64,000 nucleotides of DNA from Paenibacillus cellulositrophicus (lineage in GTDB: Bacteria > Bacillota > Bacilli > Paenibacillales > Paenibacillaceae), in NCBI RefSeq assembly GCF_009363095.1, contig NZ_CP045296.1, forward strand, positions 62,001 through 126,000. The letters are read 5' to 3'. Below the pieces are notes generated by a model. It ran no database searches, was not told where the DNA came from, and saw nothing but the letters and a program-made list of their open reading frames with translations. Both the position numbers and the translations under genes were made by a program. Shown in pieces: positions 55,294 to 64,000 of the stretch. The first letter of the stretch is position 1; each line of letters opens with the position of its first letter.

Positions 55294-55331
55294 TAAAAAA
55301 ACAAGCCCGGTCTTTATGGCCAAAGAGGGCA
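55294..55331 (-). terminator. Riboswitch-linked terminator
   Basis: On the minus strand, GCCC-TCTTT pairs with AAAGA-CC-GGGC, followed by a run of seven T, between the preQ1 aptamer and queC. It is the expression platform for transcription control. Confidence 0.75.
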
Positions 55332-55334
55332 GTC

Positions 55335-55367
55335 TTAGTTTTTTATAGAGGGAGTTCGCGAACCTCT
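55335..55367 (-). ncRNA. PreQ1-I riboswitch aptamer
   Basis: On the minus strand: AGAGGTTC, a GC-rich loop, CCCTCTATAAAAAACTAA. The P1 stem (AGAGG/CCTCT) followed by an A-rich tail and the CUAA pseudoknot strand fits the class I preQ1 consensus. A GC-rich hairpin (55369-55385) lies upstream and a TATAAT-like -10 (minus-strand TATAAT at 55423-55428) sits at the stop of the AraC gene. High preQ1 should favour termination before queC. Confidence 0.92.
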
Positions 55368-55423
55368 CCCGCGCGCGACGCGCGGATTTTCTTCAATTAA
55401 GCGCAGGGTGCTGCGCCGGACTA

Positions 55424-58388: not shown

Positions 58389-58426
58389 GTTCAGCCTGCC
58401 AAAAACAATACGCTACAATCAAGTAC

Positions 58427-58457
58427 AACCGTCCGGCTGCTGCCGGGCGGTTTTTTT
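58427..58457 (+). terminator. Terminator after the Gfo/Idh gene
   Basis: Stem AACCGTCCGGC/GCCGGGCGGTT with a 4-nt loop and seven T. Confidence 0.88.
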
Positions 58458-58525
58458 CGTTGAAAGGCTCGTCCGCAGGAGAGCTATTCCCACGCGCTGT
58501 CCCGGATCAGCGGTGATGTACGGGT

Positions 58526-58566
58526 AAAGGCTGGATTCTTGGTTTCCGAGGATCCGGCTTTTTTTG
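58526..58566 (+). terminator. Second, weaker terminator-like hairpin
   Basis: Imperfect stem AAAGGCTGGATTC...GGATCCGGCTTTTT with G-U pairs and a T-run. It sits 70 bp after the first terminator. Confidence 0.55.
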
Positions 58567-58845
58567 CCTGAAGGGGATGCGAGGCTTGTCCCCATAGGCG
58601 TCGTGTGTAGACGTTTGTACCTAATTTGTTGATCAATTTGTGTACAAATGCTAGAAGCTATTAAAAAATAGGAAAAATTGGCCGAATAGTAATAATGAAC
58701 GTTAGTTTTTTGTAGGAGGTTCAACCTAAACAAATCGATGAATTGGGGAAAATGTACTAGATTTCGCACCTTTCATTTTAGTAGCAAAAGCTGCTGTAAG
58801 CGGACCTGGTGATTACGAATGGAGCAACGTGCTCAGGAGGGCTTG
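58567..58845. other. Leader region before the phosphopantetheinyl transferase gene
   Basis: Contains a 7-bp inverted repeat TTTGTAC (58614-58620)/GTACAAA (58642-58648) around an AT-rich core with TTGATCAA. An orphan AGGAGG (58714-58719) has no start codon in reach except a distant ATG at 58738 that opens only 24 codons. I see no supported gene. The promoter of the PPTase should be here but no clear pair of boxes stands out. Confidence 0.45.
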
Positions 58846-59547
58846 ATGATCAAACTGTATATGCTTGGGATCAAGAATGTTTCTGCGGCGCATTTCGATC
58901 ATTTTATGAAACGGGTCTCTCCCGAACGAACCAGACAAGTACGACGAATCAGAAACAGGAGGGATGCTGTAAGAAGCCTGTTCGGCGAAGTCATGGTGCG
59001 CTGGGCGGTGAACCAAGTAAAGCCTGCTGCCGCCTTTTCCAAGCCATGGACACGCAGCGAATTTGGCAAACCGGCCTTTGCAGACGAACCGGATATTCAC
59101 TTTAATCTTTCCCATTCCGGAGATTGGGTGGTAGCCGCCCTCGGCCCGTCTGAACTTGGAGTGGATGTCGAGCAGGTGCTCCCTGTGAACCCGGGAATGG
59201 CTGAATTATGTTTTTCACCCGCTGAACTCGGAATGCTTCAACACTTGACCGAAGAAGAGCGGCTGAACCGGTTTTATGACATCTGGACGCTCAAAGAAAG
59301 CTATATCAAGTGCATCGGCAGAGGATTAAGTCAGCCGCTGGACTCATTTACGATCATGGTTCGTCCGGACGGAAAAATTGAGTACAGCGGTCCCGACATT
59401 GAAGCACGCAATTATCAGTTTATGCTGATCCCGATGGAAGGACCCTATAAGCTCGCGGTCTGTACGAAATCAAAGGGGCCGATCGAAATTTATACGCCGG
59501 AAATGGATCAACTCTTGGATATGAAGATGTTTCAGGTTAATTTCTGA
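58846..59547 (+). CDS. sfp: 4'-phosphopantetheinyl transferase, Sfp type
   Basis: Activates the carrier domains of peptide synthetases by adding phosphopantetheine from CoA, in the cytoplasm. 233 residues from ATG 58846, 5 bp after AGGAGG; an earlier ATG at 58819 lacks an RBS. The two core motifs are LGVDVEQV and FYDIWTLKESYIKCIGRGL, with FNLSHSGDWVVAA before them. It lies upstream of the NRPS gene, separated by the riboswitch and chemoreceptor. The symbol is by family, not by orthology. Confidence 0.92.
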   Translation: MIKLYMLGIKNVSAAHFDHFMKRVSPERTRQVRRIRNRRDAVRSLFGEVMVRWAVNQVKPAAAFSKPWTRSEFGKPAFADEPDIHFNLSHSGDWVVAALGPSELGVDVEQVLPVNPGMAELCFSPAELGMLQHLTEEERLNRFYDIWTLKESYIKCIGRGLSQPLDSFTIMVRPDGKIEYSGPDIEARNYQFMLIPMEGPYKLAVCTKSKGPIEIYTPEMDQLLDMKMFQVNF

Positions 59548-59649
59548 AATGAATGGAAATATCCATGAAAATTATGGTAGACTAGGTTTGCGAAATGAAC
59601 AATTTATAGTTACTAATTATTCATTAGTATCTATAAAAATGTATATGTA

Positions 59650-59735
59650 AAATCCATAGGCAAAACTGCTGAAAAGCAGTGACGCAAAGCTATAGGGACT
59701 ACTTCCGAAACGGGATATGTCAGCCAGTTGCAGAT
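59650..59735 (+). ncRNA. Cyclic di-GMP-I (GEMM) riboswitch aptamer
   Basis: Consensus blocks are visible in order: AGGCAAAACTGC, a GAAA-type capped stem, GTGACGCAAAGC, TATAGGG, a variable arm CCGAAACGGG and GTCAGCCAGTTGC. It lies 180 bp before the chemoreceptor start. Downstream a weak hairpin (CTGTGG/CCATAG, 59747-59767) and seven T at 59775-59781 may form the switch terminator. A further stem-loop and the gene's own RBS follow. Confidence 0.9.
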
Positions 59736-59914
59736 GAATTGGTGAGCTGTGGTTTGCATTCCCATAGGTTGCTATTTTTTTGCCCTGAACATGCTGTTTT
59801 CGCCACAGGGAGGTGTGATTCGTACAAAAACCAAGATCGTTTCTAGCATGGCCAGGTGGATAGGCGCCTGTAAGATTACATAACAGAGAGTCAGACAAAA
59901 GGAGAGAAACGAGA

Positions 59915-61687
59915 ATGAGCAAGTTTAAGCAATTTTTCAAGAAGTGGCGGTTTAAAAATTTAAGTATTGTAAGCAGAAGTATGCTGCTGACCAGTCTTTA
60001 TATTTTCATCACCGGGGCTGTCGTCATTGGCGCAAGCTTTTATATTCAGGGCACCGTTCTGACCGAGCAGCTGCAGTCGGATTCCGGTAAAACGATGGAT
60101 GCCCTGGTGAAGAGCGTATCGGTACAAGATGTCGAGCAGGCCAAGGATGTTAAGGATCCCAACGCCGCTGTCCAGCAAAAGCTAACGGGTATCTTTGACG
60201 AGCTGTCCCGTACGCATCCGAATATTGCCCAAGGGTATATTTTCGGGCCGGAGCTCGAAGGAGGCAATCAAACCTCGATTATTTCGATGCCGTCGGCTGT
60301 GCTGGAAATGTTCGCCAAAGATAATTTGCATCTGGGCGACCTGTACGAGCAGCCTAAAATTCATGCCGATGCCGTCCGCGAAATGCTGAAAACAAAAAAA
60401 CTGGTGTTTACCAAAGCATATACAGATAACTATGGTACATGGATCACGGTCCTGTATCCGTTCCAGGATGCAGGCGGCAACATCTTCGCCTACATGGGCA
60501 TCGACGTGGATGCCAGCCTGGTCTCTACCGGTCAGAATGATCTGCTGCGCAACACGCTGTTCGCCCTGCTGATTACGCTGGTGATCGTACTGGCGCTGCA
60601 GTATTACACGAACAGACGGACGTTTGCCCCGATCAAATCGTTAATGACGGCGCTGGACAAGCTCAGCAAAGGCGATTTTACCGTACAGCTGAAGGCTGGA
60701 GACGATGAGCTTGGGCAGGTTAACGCCAAATTCAACACGATGGTGAACCAAATCAACGAGCTGGTAGGGACGATTAAAAAAGTATCGGAGCAGTCGGCGG
60801 AGCAGTCGAAGTTCCTGTTCTCGGCTGTGGAGAACAATAACAAAAACTCGTTGGCCATTACGAAAAATATTGAACAAATGTCCGAGCGGGTTGCACTGCA
60901 AAGCACATCCATCACGGAGAGCGTCGTTTCGCTGGAGGAAATTTCGTCAGGCGTCAACACGATTGCCGGCAATACGTCCGAGCTGTCGGACATTTCGATG
61001 CAGATGAAGGATCAGTCGGAAAAAGGGAACGAGAACGTTGAGCAGGTTATCGAGCAGATGAATTCGATCAACCACTCGGTTAAAAATTCCGTGGACATTA
61101 TTGAGAAGCTGCAGGTCCGTTCCCAGGAAATCGGCCAAATTGTTCAGGTCATTACGGAGATTGCTTCCCAGACCAATCTACTGTCCCTGAACGCAAGCAT
61201 CGAAGCGGCGCGGGCCGGCGAGGAAGGCCGGGGATTTGCCGTGGTAGCCGATGAGGTCAAAAAATTGTCCGAAGAGTCCAGAAGATCCGCCACGCAAATT
61301 ATCGAGCTGATCCGCTTTATTCAGGATGAGACCGCACTGGCCGTCGAGGCCATTAGCGAAGGCGAGCAGAACGTCGCCAAAGGGATTGAGGTCGTCAAGG
61401 AAACCGGCTCCCTGTTTAAAGGCATGATGATCGCGACCGATTCGGTTACGAGCCAAATTCAGGAGGTATCTGCAGCGACGCAGCAGATGGTTGCCGAAAC
61501 CGAGCAAATAACGGCTTCCATTAAACAGCTTGCGGAACTGGCGGAGAAAAACTCAGCCGTATCCAGCGAGATCAAGACGAGCGCCCACGAGCAGCAGGCT
61601 TCCTTTGACAGAATTTATGATTCCGCCAATCAGATGAACCAGGTGGCTGACCAATTGGAAACCTTAGTCGATAAATTGCGGGTGTAA
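59915..61687 (+). CDS. Methyl-accepting chemotaxis protein
   Basis: Membrane chemoreceptor of 590 residues. TM1 (about 24-46) and TM2 (about 210-230) enclose a dCache/sCache-like sensing domain that reads an extracellular ligand. HAMP (about 231-283) and the long signalling coiled coil follow, with the hairpin tip IASQTNLLSLNASIEAARAGEEGRGFAVVADEVKKL that contacts CheA and CheW. The RBS AAAGGAGAG precedes the ATG. Expression is probably set by the c-di-GMP riboswitch. Its stop is 2-20 bp from the NRPS start, so the two may share a transcript. Confidence 0.94.
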   Translation: MSKFKQFFKKWRFKNLSIVSRSMLLTSLYIFITGAVVIGASFYIQGTVLTEQLQSDSGKTMDALVKSVSVQDVEQAKDVKDPNAAVQQKLTGIFDELSRTHPNIAQGYIFGPELEGGNQTSIISMPSAVLEMFAKDNLHLGDLYEQPKIHADAVREMLKTKKLVFTKAYTDNYGTWITVLYPFQDAGGNIFAYMGIDVDASLVSTGQNDLLRNTLFALLITLVIVLALQYYTNRRTFAPIKSLMTALDKLSKGDFTVQLKAGDDELGQVNAKFNTMVNQINELVGTIKKVSEQSAEQSKFLFSAVENNNKNSLAITKNIEQMSERVALQSTSITESVVSLEEISSGVNTIAGNTSELSDISMQMKDQSEKGNENVEQVIEQMNSINHSVKNSVDIIEKLQVRSQEIGQIVQVITEIASQTNLLSLNASIEAARAGEEGRGFAVVADEVKKLSEESRRSATQIIELIRFIQDETALAVEAISEGEQNVAKGIEVVKETGSLFKGMMIATDSVTSQIQEVSAATQQMVAETEQITASIKQLAELAEKNSAVSSEIKTSAHEQQASFDRIYDSANQMNQVADQLETLVDKLRV

Positions 61688-61707
61688 TCATGAAGGAGCT
61701 GAACATT

Positions 61708-64000
61708 TTGAACACAACATCGATAAGCGAGCGCAGCAAGGCATACTGGTCCCAGGAACTCGAGCTTCCTCTGCCCGGACTCAATCTCTACACGGATGAG
61801 CCGGTGCGGGAAATTCAGCCCGATTTGCTGCGGATCACGGAAACGCTGGACTTGGGACCGGAAGAGGCTGCTGAACTGAGCCGGCTGGGCAACCCTCGTG
61901 CCTGGTGGCTGGCTGGTTACGCGGTGTTCCTGTACAGGATGAGCGCCGATCAGGATTTGCTGCTTGGCGTGGTGAGCCGGCAAGGAGAACTGCTGCCGCT
62001 TCGCGCAGCGATCAGCGGACAAGATACGTTCCGGCAGGTCTATGCCCGGATCGAAGCCAAGCTGGGAGAGCTGGACGCTGCGGATTTGAGTCTGCAGGAG
62101 CTCGAAGAAATGATAGGCCAGCCCCTCGGCTATCAAGCGGTGTACGGCGAGGTTCATGAGAGCCGCCCTGCTTGGCTGGGCTGGAATGTTCAGGCGAAAT
62201 CCGGTCGTTGGACGATGAGCATTGCCTATGCACGCCAGCTGTTCCGGGAACAGACTGTGCGCAAGTTCAGCAGGCATTACGCTCAAATCGTTCGCGGTGC
62301 GCTGCGGAACGCGGATCTGGAAATCAGCCGCCAGCCTTTTCTGCTGGAGGAGGATCGGGCCGCTTATACTGCTTTGAATGATACGCAGATGGACCTTCCG
62401 GAACAGCCGACGATCGTCCGGATGATGGCTTCCACTGTAGCGAAGTATCCGGACCGGATCGCCGTCACTCAAGATGGGCAGCAGTTAACCTACAGGCAGC
62501 TTGACCGGCAGTCCAACCGGATTGCGAACATACTGCTGTCCAAAGGGCTGCAAAAAGGGCAGTTCGTGCCTATTTTCATGAAACGGAGCCTCGAAACGAT
62601 TGTTTGCATGCTTGGGGTTATTAAGGCAGGAGGGGCTTACATTCCGCTGGATCCTTCCCATCCGGATGAAAGAAACGCCTATATTATTGCTGACACGCAA
62701 ACCGGGATGATCCTGACACATGCTGAATATGTGGACCGTCTGGAAACGCTGCTTTCCGGTTTTGACAGGAAGCCGGAAATTCTCCCATTGGGAGAACAGG
62801 CGGACTCCTATCCGGAAGAAGCATCCCCGGTTGCCATTGAGCCGGATGATCTGGCCTATATCATTTATACGTCCGGTTCCACAGGCAAGCCGAAAGGAGC
62901 CCTGATCGCTCATCAAGGCGTCGTCAACTTGGCAGAGTCCACGCGCAGGGAGATGGATCTGACCGAGGAGGACGTGATTCTTCAGTACTCCACGTTCAGC
63001 TTTGACGCGTCGGTCTATGACATTTTCGGATCGCTGGCCTGCGGCAGCCGGCTGCATCTGCTCACCGATGAGGAGCGTTTCTCCATCGACGCCTTCACCG
63101 CGGCGGTGGTGAAGCAGCAGGCGACGCGCGTCGCCATTCTGCCGACCGTTTTCTTCAACCAGCTTGCCGCCCATTTGCCTGAAGAGGATGCGCCCAAATA
63201 CGGGAACATCAAGAGCATCATCGTCGGTGGCGAGGCGTTGTCGGGAGAGGCCGTACGCATGCTGCAGAAAAAGCTGCAGGTTCCGATCGTCAATCTTTAC
63301 GGTCCTACCGAGATTACGGCGGTGGCAACCTCCCATATCGTCGATTATCCGGTTCCGGACGATCTGACGACAGTATGTATCGGAACGCCGCTGAGCAATT
63401 ATGAATTGTACATTGTCAGCGAGCACGACGAGCTGTGCCCGATCGGAGTTACCGGCGAGCTCTTGATCAGCTCCGTCGGCGTGGGCAAGGGGTATTTGAA
63501 CCAGCCCGAAAAAACGAAGGAAGCCTTCATCACCGATCCGATTACGCCGGAGTCGGGCAAGAAATTTTACCGTTCGGGTGATATGGTCCGCCTTCTTCCG
63601 AGCGGACTGGTGGAATATCGGGGGAGAAAGGATGCCCAGGTAAAAATCCGGGGCTTCCGGATCGAGATCGGAGAGATTGAGGACAATCTGGCAAAGCATG
63701 AGTCCGTCAAGGATATCGCTGTCATTCCAAGAACCGAAGCGGACGGAACCAAAGTGCTCGCTGCCTTTTATACGTCAAATGACGGGCAGCCGGTTGCTTC
63801 CAAGGACCTCGCCCAATTTTTAGGCCAAAAGGTGCCCGGCTATATGGTTCCCAAATATATGTGTTTCGTGGATCAAATGCCGCTGTCACCGACAGGGAAA
63901 ATCGACCGCAAAAAGCTGGCGGCCTTCGAGATCGTGCCGGAAGAGGACGATTCGCCGTATGAAGCCCCGGTCACGGCTATTCAAAAGGAAGTGGCCGCTG
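61708..64000 (+). CDS. Non-ribosomal peptide synthetase, 3' partial
   Basis: First 764 residues of an NRPS that runs off the window. Residues about 1-215 look like only the C-terminal lobe of a condensation domain; the HHxxxDG active site is absent. A full adenylation domain follows (about 235-740) with YTSGSTGKPKG (A3), LYGPTE (A5), YRSGDMVR (A7), GRKDAQVKIRGFRIEIGEIE (A8) and PTGKIDRKKL (A10). The carrier domain begins at the end. Substrate-site residues start with D-A-Y (FDASVYD), which I do not translate into an amino acid. TTG 61708 has AAGGAG 10 bp upstream; ATG 61690 is in frame without an RBS. Confidence 0.9.
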   Translation, partial: MNTTSISERSKAYWSQELELPLPGLNLYTDEPVREIQPDLLRITETLDLGPEEAAELSRLGNPRAWWLAGYAVFLYRMSADQDLLLGVVSRQGELLPLRAAISGQDTFRQVYARIEAKLGELDAADLSLQELEEMIGQPLGYQAVYGEVHESRPAWLGWNVQAKSGRWTMSIAYARQLFREQTVRKFSRHYAQIVRGALRNADLEISRQPFLLEEDRAAYTALNDTQMDLPEQPTIVRMMASTVAKYPDRIAVTQDGQQLTYRQLDRQSNRIANILLSKGLQKGQFVPIFMKRSLETIVCMLGVIKAGGAYIPLDPSHPDERNAYIIADTQTGMILTHAEYVDRLETLLSGFDRKPEILPLGEQADSYPEEASPVAIEPDDLAYIIYTSGSTGKPKGALIAHQGVVNLAESTRREMDLTEEDVILQYSTFSFDASVYDIFGSLACGSRLHLLTDEERFSIDAFTAAVVKQQATRVAILPTVFFNQLAAHLPEEDAPKYGNIKSIIVGGEALSGEAVRMLQKKLQVPIVNLYGPTEITAVATSHIVDYPVPDDLTTVCIGTPLSNYELYIVSEHDELCPIGVTGELLISSVGVGKGYLNQPEKTKEAFITDPITPESGKKFYRSGDMVRLLPSGLVEYRGRKDAQVKIRGFRIEIGEIEDNLAKHESVKDIAVIPRTEADGTKVLAAFYTSNDGQPVASKDLAQFLGQKVPGYMVPKYMCFVDQMPLSPTGKIDRKKLAAFEIVPEEDDSPYEAPVTAIQKEVAA

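Follow-up and report, generated by a model that had tools for sequence, protein, structure and literature searches.

A chemoreceptor gene and a single-module reductase-ending synthetase gene inherited together, here behind a c-di-GMP-I riboswitch, in Paenibacillus cellulositrophicus and related bacteria

Near the end of a 64,000-nucleotide (nt) stretch of the genome of Paenibacillus cellulositrophicus (contig NZ_CP045296.1, positions 62,001 to 126,000 of the forward strand; referred to as the window), the gene of a methyl-accepting chemotaxis receptor is followed by that of a stand-alone synthetase with adenylation, thiolation and reductase (A-T-R) domains, and both lie downstream of a c-di-GMP-I riboswitch (c-di-GMP, cyclic dimeric guanosine monophosphate). 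The two genes are inherited together almost without exception in the family Paenibacillaceae. With slightly more confidence than doubt, the locus can be read as a motile-state operon gated by c-di-GMP, in which a dedicated receptor is joined to an A-T-R synthetase making a small molecule. An initial annotation of this DNA had given the order phosphopantetheinyl transferase, aptamer, chemoreceptor and start of a nonribosomal peptide synthetase (NRPS) gene, and all of these are present in that order and on that strand:

58846–59547, + strand: Sfp-type 4'-phosphopantetheinyl transferase (PPTase; PF01648, 3.4e-18); the open reading frame (ORF) extends from 58819 to 59547 and contains an in-frame ATG at 58846
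59649–59735, + strand: c-di-GMP-I riboswitch aptamer (RF01051, 74.1 bits); relatives carry an aptamer at the same position
59687–59695, + strand: aptamer segment AAGCUAUAG, a candidate antiterminator partner, judged by complementarity, of 59747–59755 (CUGUGGUUU)
59740–59781, + strand: intrinsic-terminator-like hairpin (59740–59774), then seven T (59775–59781)
59915–61687, + strand: methyl-accepting chemotaxis receptor of 590 amino acids (aa), with a Cache-like extracellular sensor (about aa 42–208), HAMP and signalling domain
61708–64000, + strand, running past the window to 65415: A-T-R synthetase, with condensation remnant, adenylation, carrier and thioester reductase domains

The single-module A-T-R enzyme is termed here class 1, and a two-module, reductase-ending NRPS class 2. 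Full-length orthologs of the window enzyme with at least 55% identity occur in 13 of 100 genomes of the genus, and the receptor gene is directly upstream in all 13. Together with 53 loci from other genera, these make up the 66 class-1 loci examined, out of 139 class-1 genomes of the family. The receptor stands directly upstream and on the same strand in 65 of the 66, at gaps of −29 to 220 nt (median 43). The conservation of the link between chemoreceptor and NRPS, which the initial annotation had suggested examining, is borne out by these loci and by the co-occurrence given below. Enzymes without a receptor, raised there as an argument against the link, are found at one of the 66 loci (L116) and at L103, a distant relative in Polycladospora (41%); the other 65 keep it. 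Among 16 named loci, mostly the same records as the G loci, the receptor is intact in 14, in pieces in one (L102) and lacking in one (L103). In L102 (Paenibacillus sp. D2_2) receptor and synthetase are each split into two ORFs, by decay or sequencing errors.

Co-occurrence was counted in 394 genomes of the family with a sensor-domain profile built from 58 of these loci and applied within the family at E ≤ 1e-40, the classes being split by hand. Sensor domain and enzyme are both present in 137 genomes and both absent from 254; two hold the enzyme only (G161 and G167, the enzyme frame being partial in G167) and one the sensor only (G171). Of the 140 family genomes with either of the two, 137 thus have both (Fisher p 9e-104, a figure that ignores shared ancestry). 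No sensor match is seen in any of the 38 genomes with a weaker enzyme match, of the two-module type where printed. In each of 20 genomes the top-scoring sensor match is the receptor linked to the enzyme; nine of these genomes lie outside the family and did not contribute to the profile, and the match is weak in three (G441, G501 and G591). Within the family, the sensor domain is nearly specific to this operon. The receptor had been described in the initial annotation as inserted in an NRPS locus; it is instead the conserved partner, and it is the PPTase gene that adjoins in just 3 of the 13 genus loci (the window genome, G046 and G067).

Other NRPS clusters provide the background for this pairing. 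Eight genomes were compared, each with 11 to 22 receptors. Of 20 such clusters among the matches listed for them, none has a receptor within 50 kb on its contig, and the shortest distance among these matches is about 51 kb, in a draft genome; distances were compared by eye, and three of the eight genomes are many-contig drafts or have clusters on small contigs. All five class-1 or class-2 genes of the same eight genomes have a receptor beside them. A first control found a receptor-like ORF or a riboswitch in none of 22 other-NRPS regions, a weak test owing to short flanks: at least 2 kb were covered upstream of the NRPS block in 4 of the 22 and downstream in 11, and one region, L088, is itself an A-T-R-like gene that ends at the contig end. 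The distance control was relied on in its place, because few of the 22 regions show upstream sequence.

Followed past the end of the window, the synthetase gene stops at 65415 and encodes 1241 aa, a single module. PF00501, PF00550 and PF07993 are all above the Pfam cut-off, and TIGR01746 is matched at 225.2 against a cut-off of 213.35. The condensation remnant covers the 57 C-terminal of the 456 profile positions of PF00668, below the cut-off, and the HH...D pattern is not in the first 260 aa of 64 of the 66 orthologs, that of the window included. The catalytic residues are kept among the 66 aligned orthologs (carrier Ser in 66, reductase Tyr in 65, reductase Lys in 66). A multimodular NRPS with an active condensation domain was rejected on account of the single module and the missing HH...D pattern, and the synthesis of a peptide, as initially proposed, has to be given up. 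By analogy, since only a remnant of condensation accompanies the single module, the enzyme should release an amino-aldehyde rather than a peptide.

The adenylation pocket code of the window enzyme is DAYIIGLAVK, which is not known to match any substrate code exactly. In the other main clade of the family the code is mostly DAWITAVVCK or DAWITAVVAK, agreeing at up to 7 of 10 positions with the Phe code. Because the family's majority code is no closer than this to the Phe code, the predicted substrate is stated simply as one hydrophobic or aromatic amino acid. The likely product class is taken from known A-T-R enzymes: PvfC and AsaC are such enzymes, and their pyrazinones are described as arising by reductive release of an amino-aldehyde (PMC10512218). 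Genome mining of the Paenibacillus strains 23TSA30-6 and IHB B 3084 has reported an "NRPS-like" gene whose adenylation domain is of Phe type (PMC7829367) and which may encode the present enzyme.

The pairing extends beyond the family. In 348 genomes of the class searched, the enzyme was found at E ≤ 1e-200 in 23 outside the family, and 20 of their loci were examined. In 16 the receptor gene immediately precedes the enzyme gene on the same strand; in L205 it lies downstream, and in L196, L197 and L200, where the synthetase has 2200 aa, it is divergent. It is again downstream in a twenty-first locus, L213. Ten have a PPTase-like ORF next to the enzyme gene (L186, L187, L188, L193, L195, L198, L199, L202, L203 and L204). 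Ten of the 20 have a riboswitch ahead of the receptor gene, its aptamer in L186 overlapping the start of the longest ORF, and T-runs are present, judged by eye, in all ten leaders. L187 carries a second c-di-GMP-I-like match (L187:9319-9409) on the other strand, immediately ahead of a divergently oriented gene of 226 aa, so that the two aptamers stand back to back.

A parallel case is offered by the class-2 synthetases, enzymes of about 2240–2320 aa with an AusA-like architecture. A c-di-GMP-I or I-GGC aptamer precedes the NRPS gene in nine of nine genus loci, and in five of seven loci from other genera an aptamer precedes either this gene or a PPTase gene ahead of it. A receptor gene follows downstream on the same strand in the same proportions (9/9 and 5/7), and riboswitch and receptor are found together in 14 of the 16 loci (L079–L087 and L157–L163), which are part of the 38 weaker-match genomes of the co-occurrence count. 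The receptors match that of the window at only about 30%. The adenylation codes resemble those for Leu then Pro, or Ile then Val. This pattern indicates that the association of a reductase-ending synthetase with a receptor and a c-di-GMP switch exceeds one gene family. Several of these loci encode, between NRPS and receptor, a protein of about 119 aa that matches no Pfam family, with genes of a bactofilin-like protein and a major facilitator superfamily transporter nearby. The aptamers at L084:4419-4519 and L086:4354-4454 have their highest score with the variant family c-di-GMP-I-GGC (RF03167), and the ligand preference of such aptamers could differ.

The window aptamer is full length (RF01051 positions 1–87 of 87; its 74.1 bits exceed the gathering score of 35, with E 1.1e-12), and its expression platform, the terminator, is directly 3'. 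The stretch 59736–59782 folds at −13.1 kcal/mol (z −2.55); its hairpin has a 9-nt loop and is therefore unlisted in the generic terminator scan, which permits loops of 3–8. Riboswitches of relatives were searched with a covariance model built in this analysis. One is found ahead of the class-1 operon in 22 of the 66 family loci, falling on the enzyme tree into two groups that need 4 changes. Among 34 leaders from the two classes, a hairpin and T-run follow within 110 nt of the aptamer in 31 and within 220 nt in the other three. At L116, where the receptor is gone, the aptamer is directly ahead of the enzyme, so the riboswitch goes with the operon rather than with the receptor alone. In the 7.4 Mb genome two c-di-GMP-I aptamers were found, that of the window included. 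The second (L006:6829-6928, minus strand; G000:C1:2651828-2651927) lies about 400 nt upstream of genes for an acylating acetaldehyde dehydrogenase and a 4-hydroxy-2-oxovalerate aldolase, an unexpected target.

On the direction of switching, the terminator 5' strand shows a tendency towards complementarity with the aptamer core, which is the design of an OFF switch and suggests that c-di-GMP turns the operon off. Twenty of the 22 class-1 leaders were taken and 16 kept as non-redundant. Their summed pairing energy is −175.4 kcal/mol, against a mean of −112.5 in letter shuffles, none of 500 being as low. In class 2, pairing of the aptamer 3' end with the terminator gives single-locus p values of 0.014 to 0.33 and is at most suggestive. 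A pairing of the window aptamer with the terminator 3' strand, seen by eye, was rejected, as it is not kept in relatives. Of seven leaders in the riboswitch-less P. lautus/P. glucanolyticus group, six carry a sigma-D site close to the consensus, with one mismatch in 12 positions (p ≤ 0.01 for each, 100 resamplings). In L070–L075 this sigma-D-like promoter lies about 300 nt upstream of the receptor, the best-scoring site of L073 being farther upstream than the rest; the signal is significant in this clade and about at chance elsewhere. Perhaps one motility control has here replaced another. Since the OFF-type design and the sigma-D sites both point that way, the operon would belong to the motile state.

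The mechanism proposed on these grounds would join a receptor and a stand-alone A-T-R synthetase, inherited together, under a terminating c-di-GMP-I riboswitch. At low c-di-GMP, in swimming cells, the terminator 5' strand would pair with the aptamer (at the core segment GCAAAGCUAUAGGG or at the aptamer 5' end), termination would be avoided and both genes would be transcribed. At high c-di-GMP, as cells settle, the ligand would hold the aptamer, the terminator would form and both genes would fall silent. The synthetase would activate one hydrophobic or aromatic amino acid and load it on its carrier domain, which the neighbouring PPTase could arm. The reductase would then release an alpha-amino aldehyde, expected to give a pyrazine- or pyrazinone-type molecule or an alcohol. 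This compound, or a close relative, is what the Cache-like sensor would most likely detect. A motile cell would thus produce a signal of its own and move towards it or away from it. Sensing of the enzyme product or a close relative by the receptor is the most interesting step of this mechanism, but also the least supported.

A wider scheme of chemotactic self-signalling falls somewhat short of an even chance in our estimate. Low-c-di-GMP cells would make an amino-aldehyde-derived molecule and navigate by it, solo receptors elsewhere would eavesdrop, and parallel c-di-GMP-gated versions of "secrete and smell" would employ different enzymes and receptors for single hydrophobic or aromatic, Leu-Pro-like and Ile-Val-like aldehydes. 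Solo receptors of the same sensor family, some in enzyme-less genomes, are seen at L206:4902-6668 and at L207–L212, and eavesdropping is a possible role for them.

Several observations weigh against the proposed operon. A second copy of the sensor domain is found in 65 of the 74 sensor-bearing g5 genomes, receptors with this domain occur without the enzyme in six genomes outside the family and in G171 inside it, and none of the seven sensor-bearing receptors away from the synthetase (L206–L212) has a synthetase adjoining. Outside the family, 12 of the 23 enzyme-bearing genomes show no sensor match at E ≤ 1e-20, and the enzyme was not found in 6 of the 17 sensor-bearing genomes. No riboswitch was found in 44 of the 66 class-1 family loci; in 18 of these, also searched with Rfam, there is no c-di-GMP riboswitch, and 11 riboswitch-less leaders tested hold no Rfam RNA family of any kind. 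As to the switch, complementarity reaches p ≤ 0.05 singly in just 8 of the 16 leaders, and ligand-free folds favour the terminator in five of eight leaders (L078, L113, L116, L118 and L121) and the alternative in three. The lowest-energy alternative of the window pairs 59747–59755 with the aptamer 5' end at 59649–59659, not with 59687–59695. A promoter scan of 58400–62200 did not find a sigma-A promoter ahead of the aptamer.

The first alternative concerns the ligand. The receptor is above the Pfam cut-offs for MCPsignal (150.4 bits) and HAMP (37.8 bits). The AlphaFold2 model of its sensor domain, built from 58 sequences, has a predicted local distance difference test (pLDDT) score of 92.4, and that of the whole receptor is poor (70.9). 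The sensor has no Pfam Cache match; its model resembles WalK (Z 13.7), KinD (13.3), CitA (12.3) and Tlp3 (10.7), and the domain looks like a single Cache/PAS-like extracellular one. LOV domains in the Foldseek list are read as sharing the PAS-like fold. The fold by itself does not identify the ligand. Since Tlp3, CitA and KinD are amino-acid- or organic-acid-binding Cache/PAS domains, the receptor might sense an outside cue such as the precursor amino acid or an organic acid, the synthetase serving another motile-state function under the same switch. This is unlikely, though worth serious attention: sensor domains of the family also occur without the enzyme, and for this reason the ligand need not be self-made. 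Nevertheless, the near-perfect co-inheritance in the 394 genomes exceeds what shared regulation needs, and the pair persists at loci where the riboswitch was not found.

The opposite sign of control, in which c-di-GMP would prevent termination and turn the operon on, would assign compound and receptor to the settling or biofilm state. It is favoured by the aptamer abutting the terminator and by the ligand-free folds given above, and the window antiterminator, using the aptamer 5' end, might be compatible with the aptamer closing helix. We regard it as doubtful, because in the pooled class-1 leaders the terminator 5' strand is complementary to the aptamer core, the usual OFF design, and the sister group has sigma-D-like motility promoters.

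The predicted co-transcription of receptor and synthetase, read from the sequence, bears on a third alternative. The longest synthetase ORF starts at ATG 61690. TTG 61708 is the likely true start, favoured because a Shine-Dalgarno-like AAGGAG precedes it and the N-termini and starts of relatives are similar; its distance from the receptor stop at 61687 is 20 nt, the spacing given in the initial annotation. Also as stated there, no terminator separates the two genes: on the + strand of the junction the scan shows nothing resembling a terminator. It lists 5 sites in total against 4.2 by chance, one of them weak and within the receptor gene (60794). The RNA of 61640–61720 folds more weakly than shuffles (z +1.58), and no promoter-like site was seen on the + strand of 58400–62200. 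A riboswitch that controls the receptor alone, with a synthetase promoter inside the receptor gene, is improbable, even if c-di-GMP-I riboswitches ahead of chemoreceptor genes are a familiar arrangement. The short gaps here and in relatives, the absence of a promoter-like site in the interval scanned and the riboswitch lying directly ahead of the enzyme in L116 and of NRPS genes in class 2 all argue against it. Chance neighbourhood, for which the commonness of receptors (ten in this genome) might be invoked, is refuted by the 65 of 66 loci, the co-occurrence counts and the 20 distant NRPS clusters among the matches listed, and can be dismissed for practical purposes.

Among known systems, PvfC of the pvf cluster of Pseudomonas fluorescens and AsaC of Aspergillus are closest in domain make-up, each being a single A-T-R module without a working condensation domain (PMC10512218). 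The same source describes the pvf cluster as making autoinducers, not yet identified, and PvfC as using Leu, in contrast to the hydrophobic or aromatic substrate predicted here; its passages on PvfC and AsaC mention no chemoreceptor or c-di-GMP riboswitch, unlike the present locus (PMC10512218). The best NCBIfam matches of synthetase and PPTase are AusA and AusB of the aureusimine system of Staphylococcus aureus, with which reductase release is shared. However, AusA is A-T-C-A-T-R, with a condensation domain, and the present synthetase is one module scoring 591.9 against the equivalog cut-off of 2500 of NF047350, so that identity with AusA was rejected; the PPTase reaches 75 against 225 for AusB. 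The class-2 synthetases are closer to AusA in architecture than the window enzyme is.

Riboswitches of the c-di-GMP-I (GEMM-I) type precede motility and chemotaxis genes. The present case shares their aptamer family, terminator platform and, as first gene, a chemoreceptor, but differs in adding a small-molecule synthetase; in class 2 the first gene is the NRPS or PPTase gene. LuxI and LuxR form a signalling pair of a synthase and its cognate receptor, with solo receptors elsewhere. The likeness lies in the co-inherited genes of a small-molecule synthase and a receptor, the ligand being here a predicted one, whereas the present receptor belongs to chemotaxis and is not a transcription factor. 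No description of the receptor-synthetase pair was found in a literature search whose coverage excluded most subscription journals.

Two neighbouring features complete the locus. A PreQ1 riboswitch (47.2 bits) at 55329–55372 on the minus strand lies just upstream of minus-strand ORFs (55200–53328) that look by eye like queuosine-precursor genes, an ordinary PreQ1 context. A 5-oxoprolinase operon, pxpB-pxpC-pxpA, is found downstream, past the window end (L003:11404-13887, window coordinates 67403–69886); among the genus loci examined, it stands beside the receptor-synthetase pair only in the two closest relatives, L067 and L068.

To our knowledge, few chemoreceptors have an established natural ligand, and for the small "NRPS-like" reductase genes of Bacilli a role has rarely been established. 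The receptor sensor family and the enzyme family predict each other, and this gives direct access to the product as well as to the ligand. Through the riboswitch, the pair is connected to the decision between swimming and settling. If the receptor does read the product of its neighbour, the locus would represent a self-made chemotactic signal with a defined synthase.

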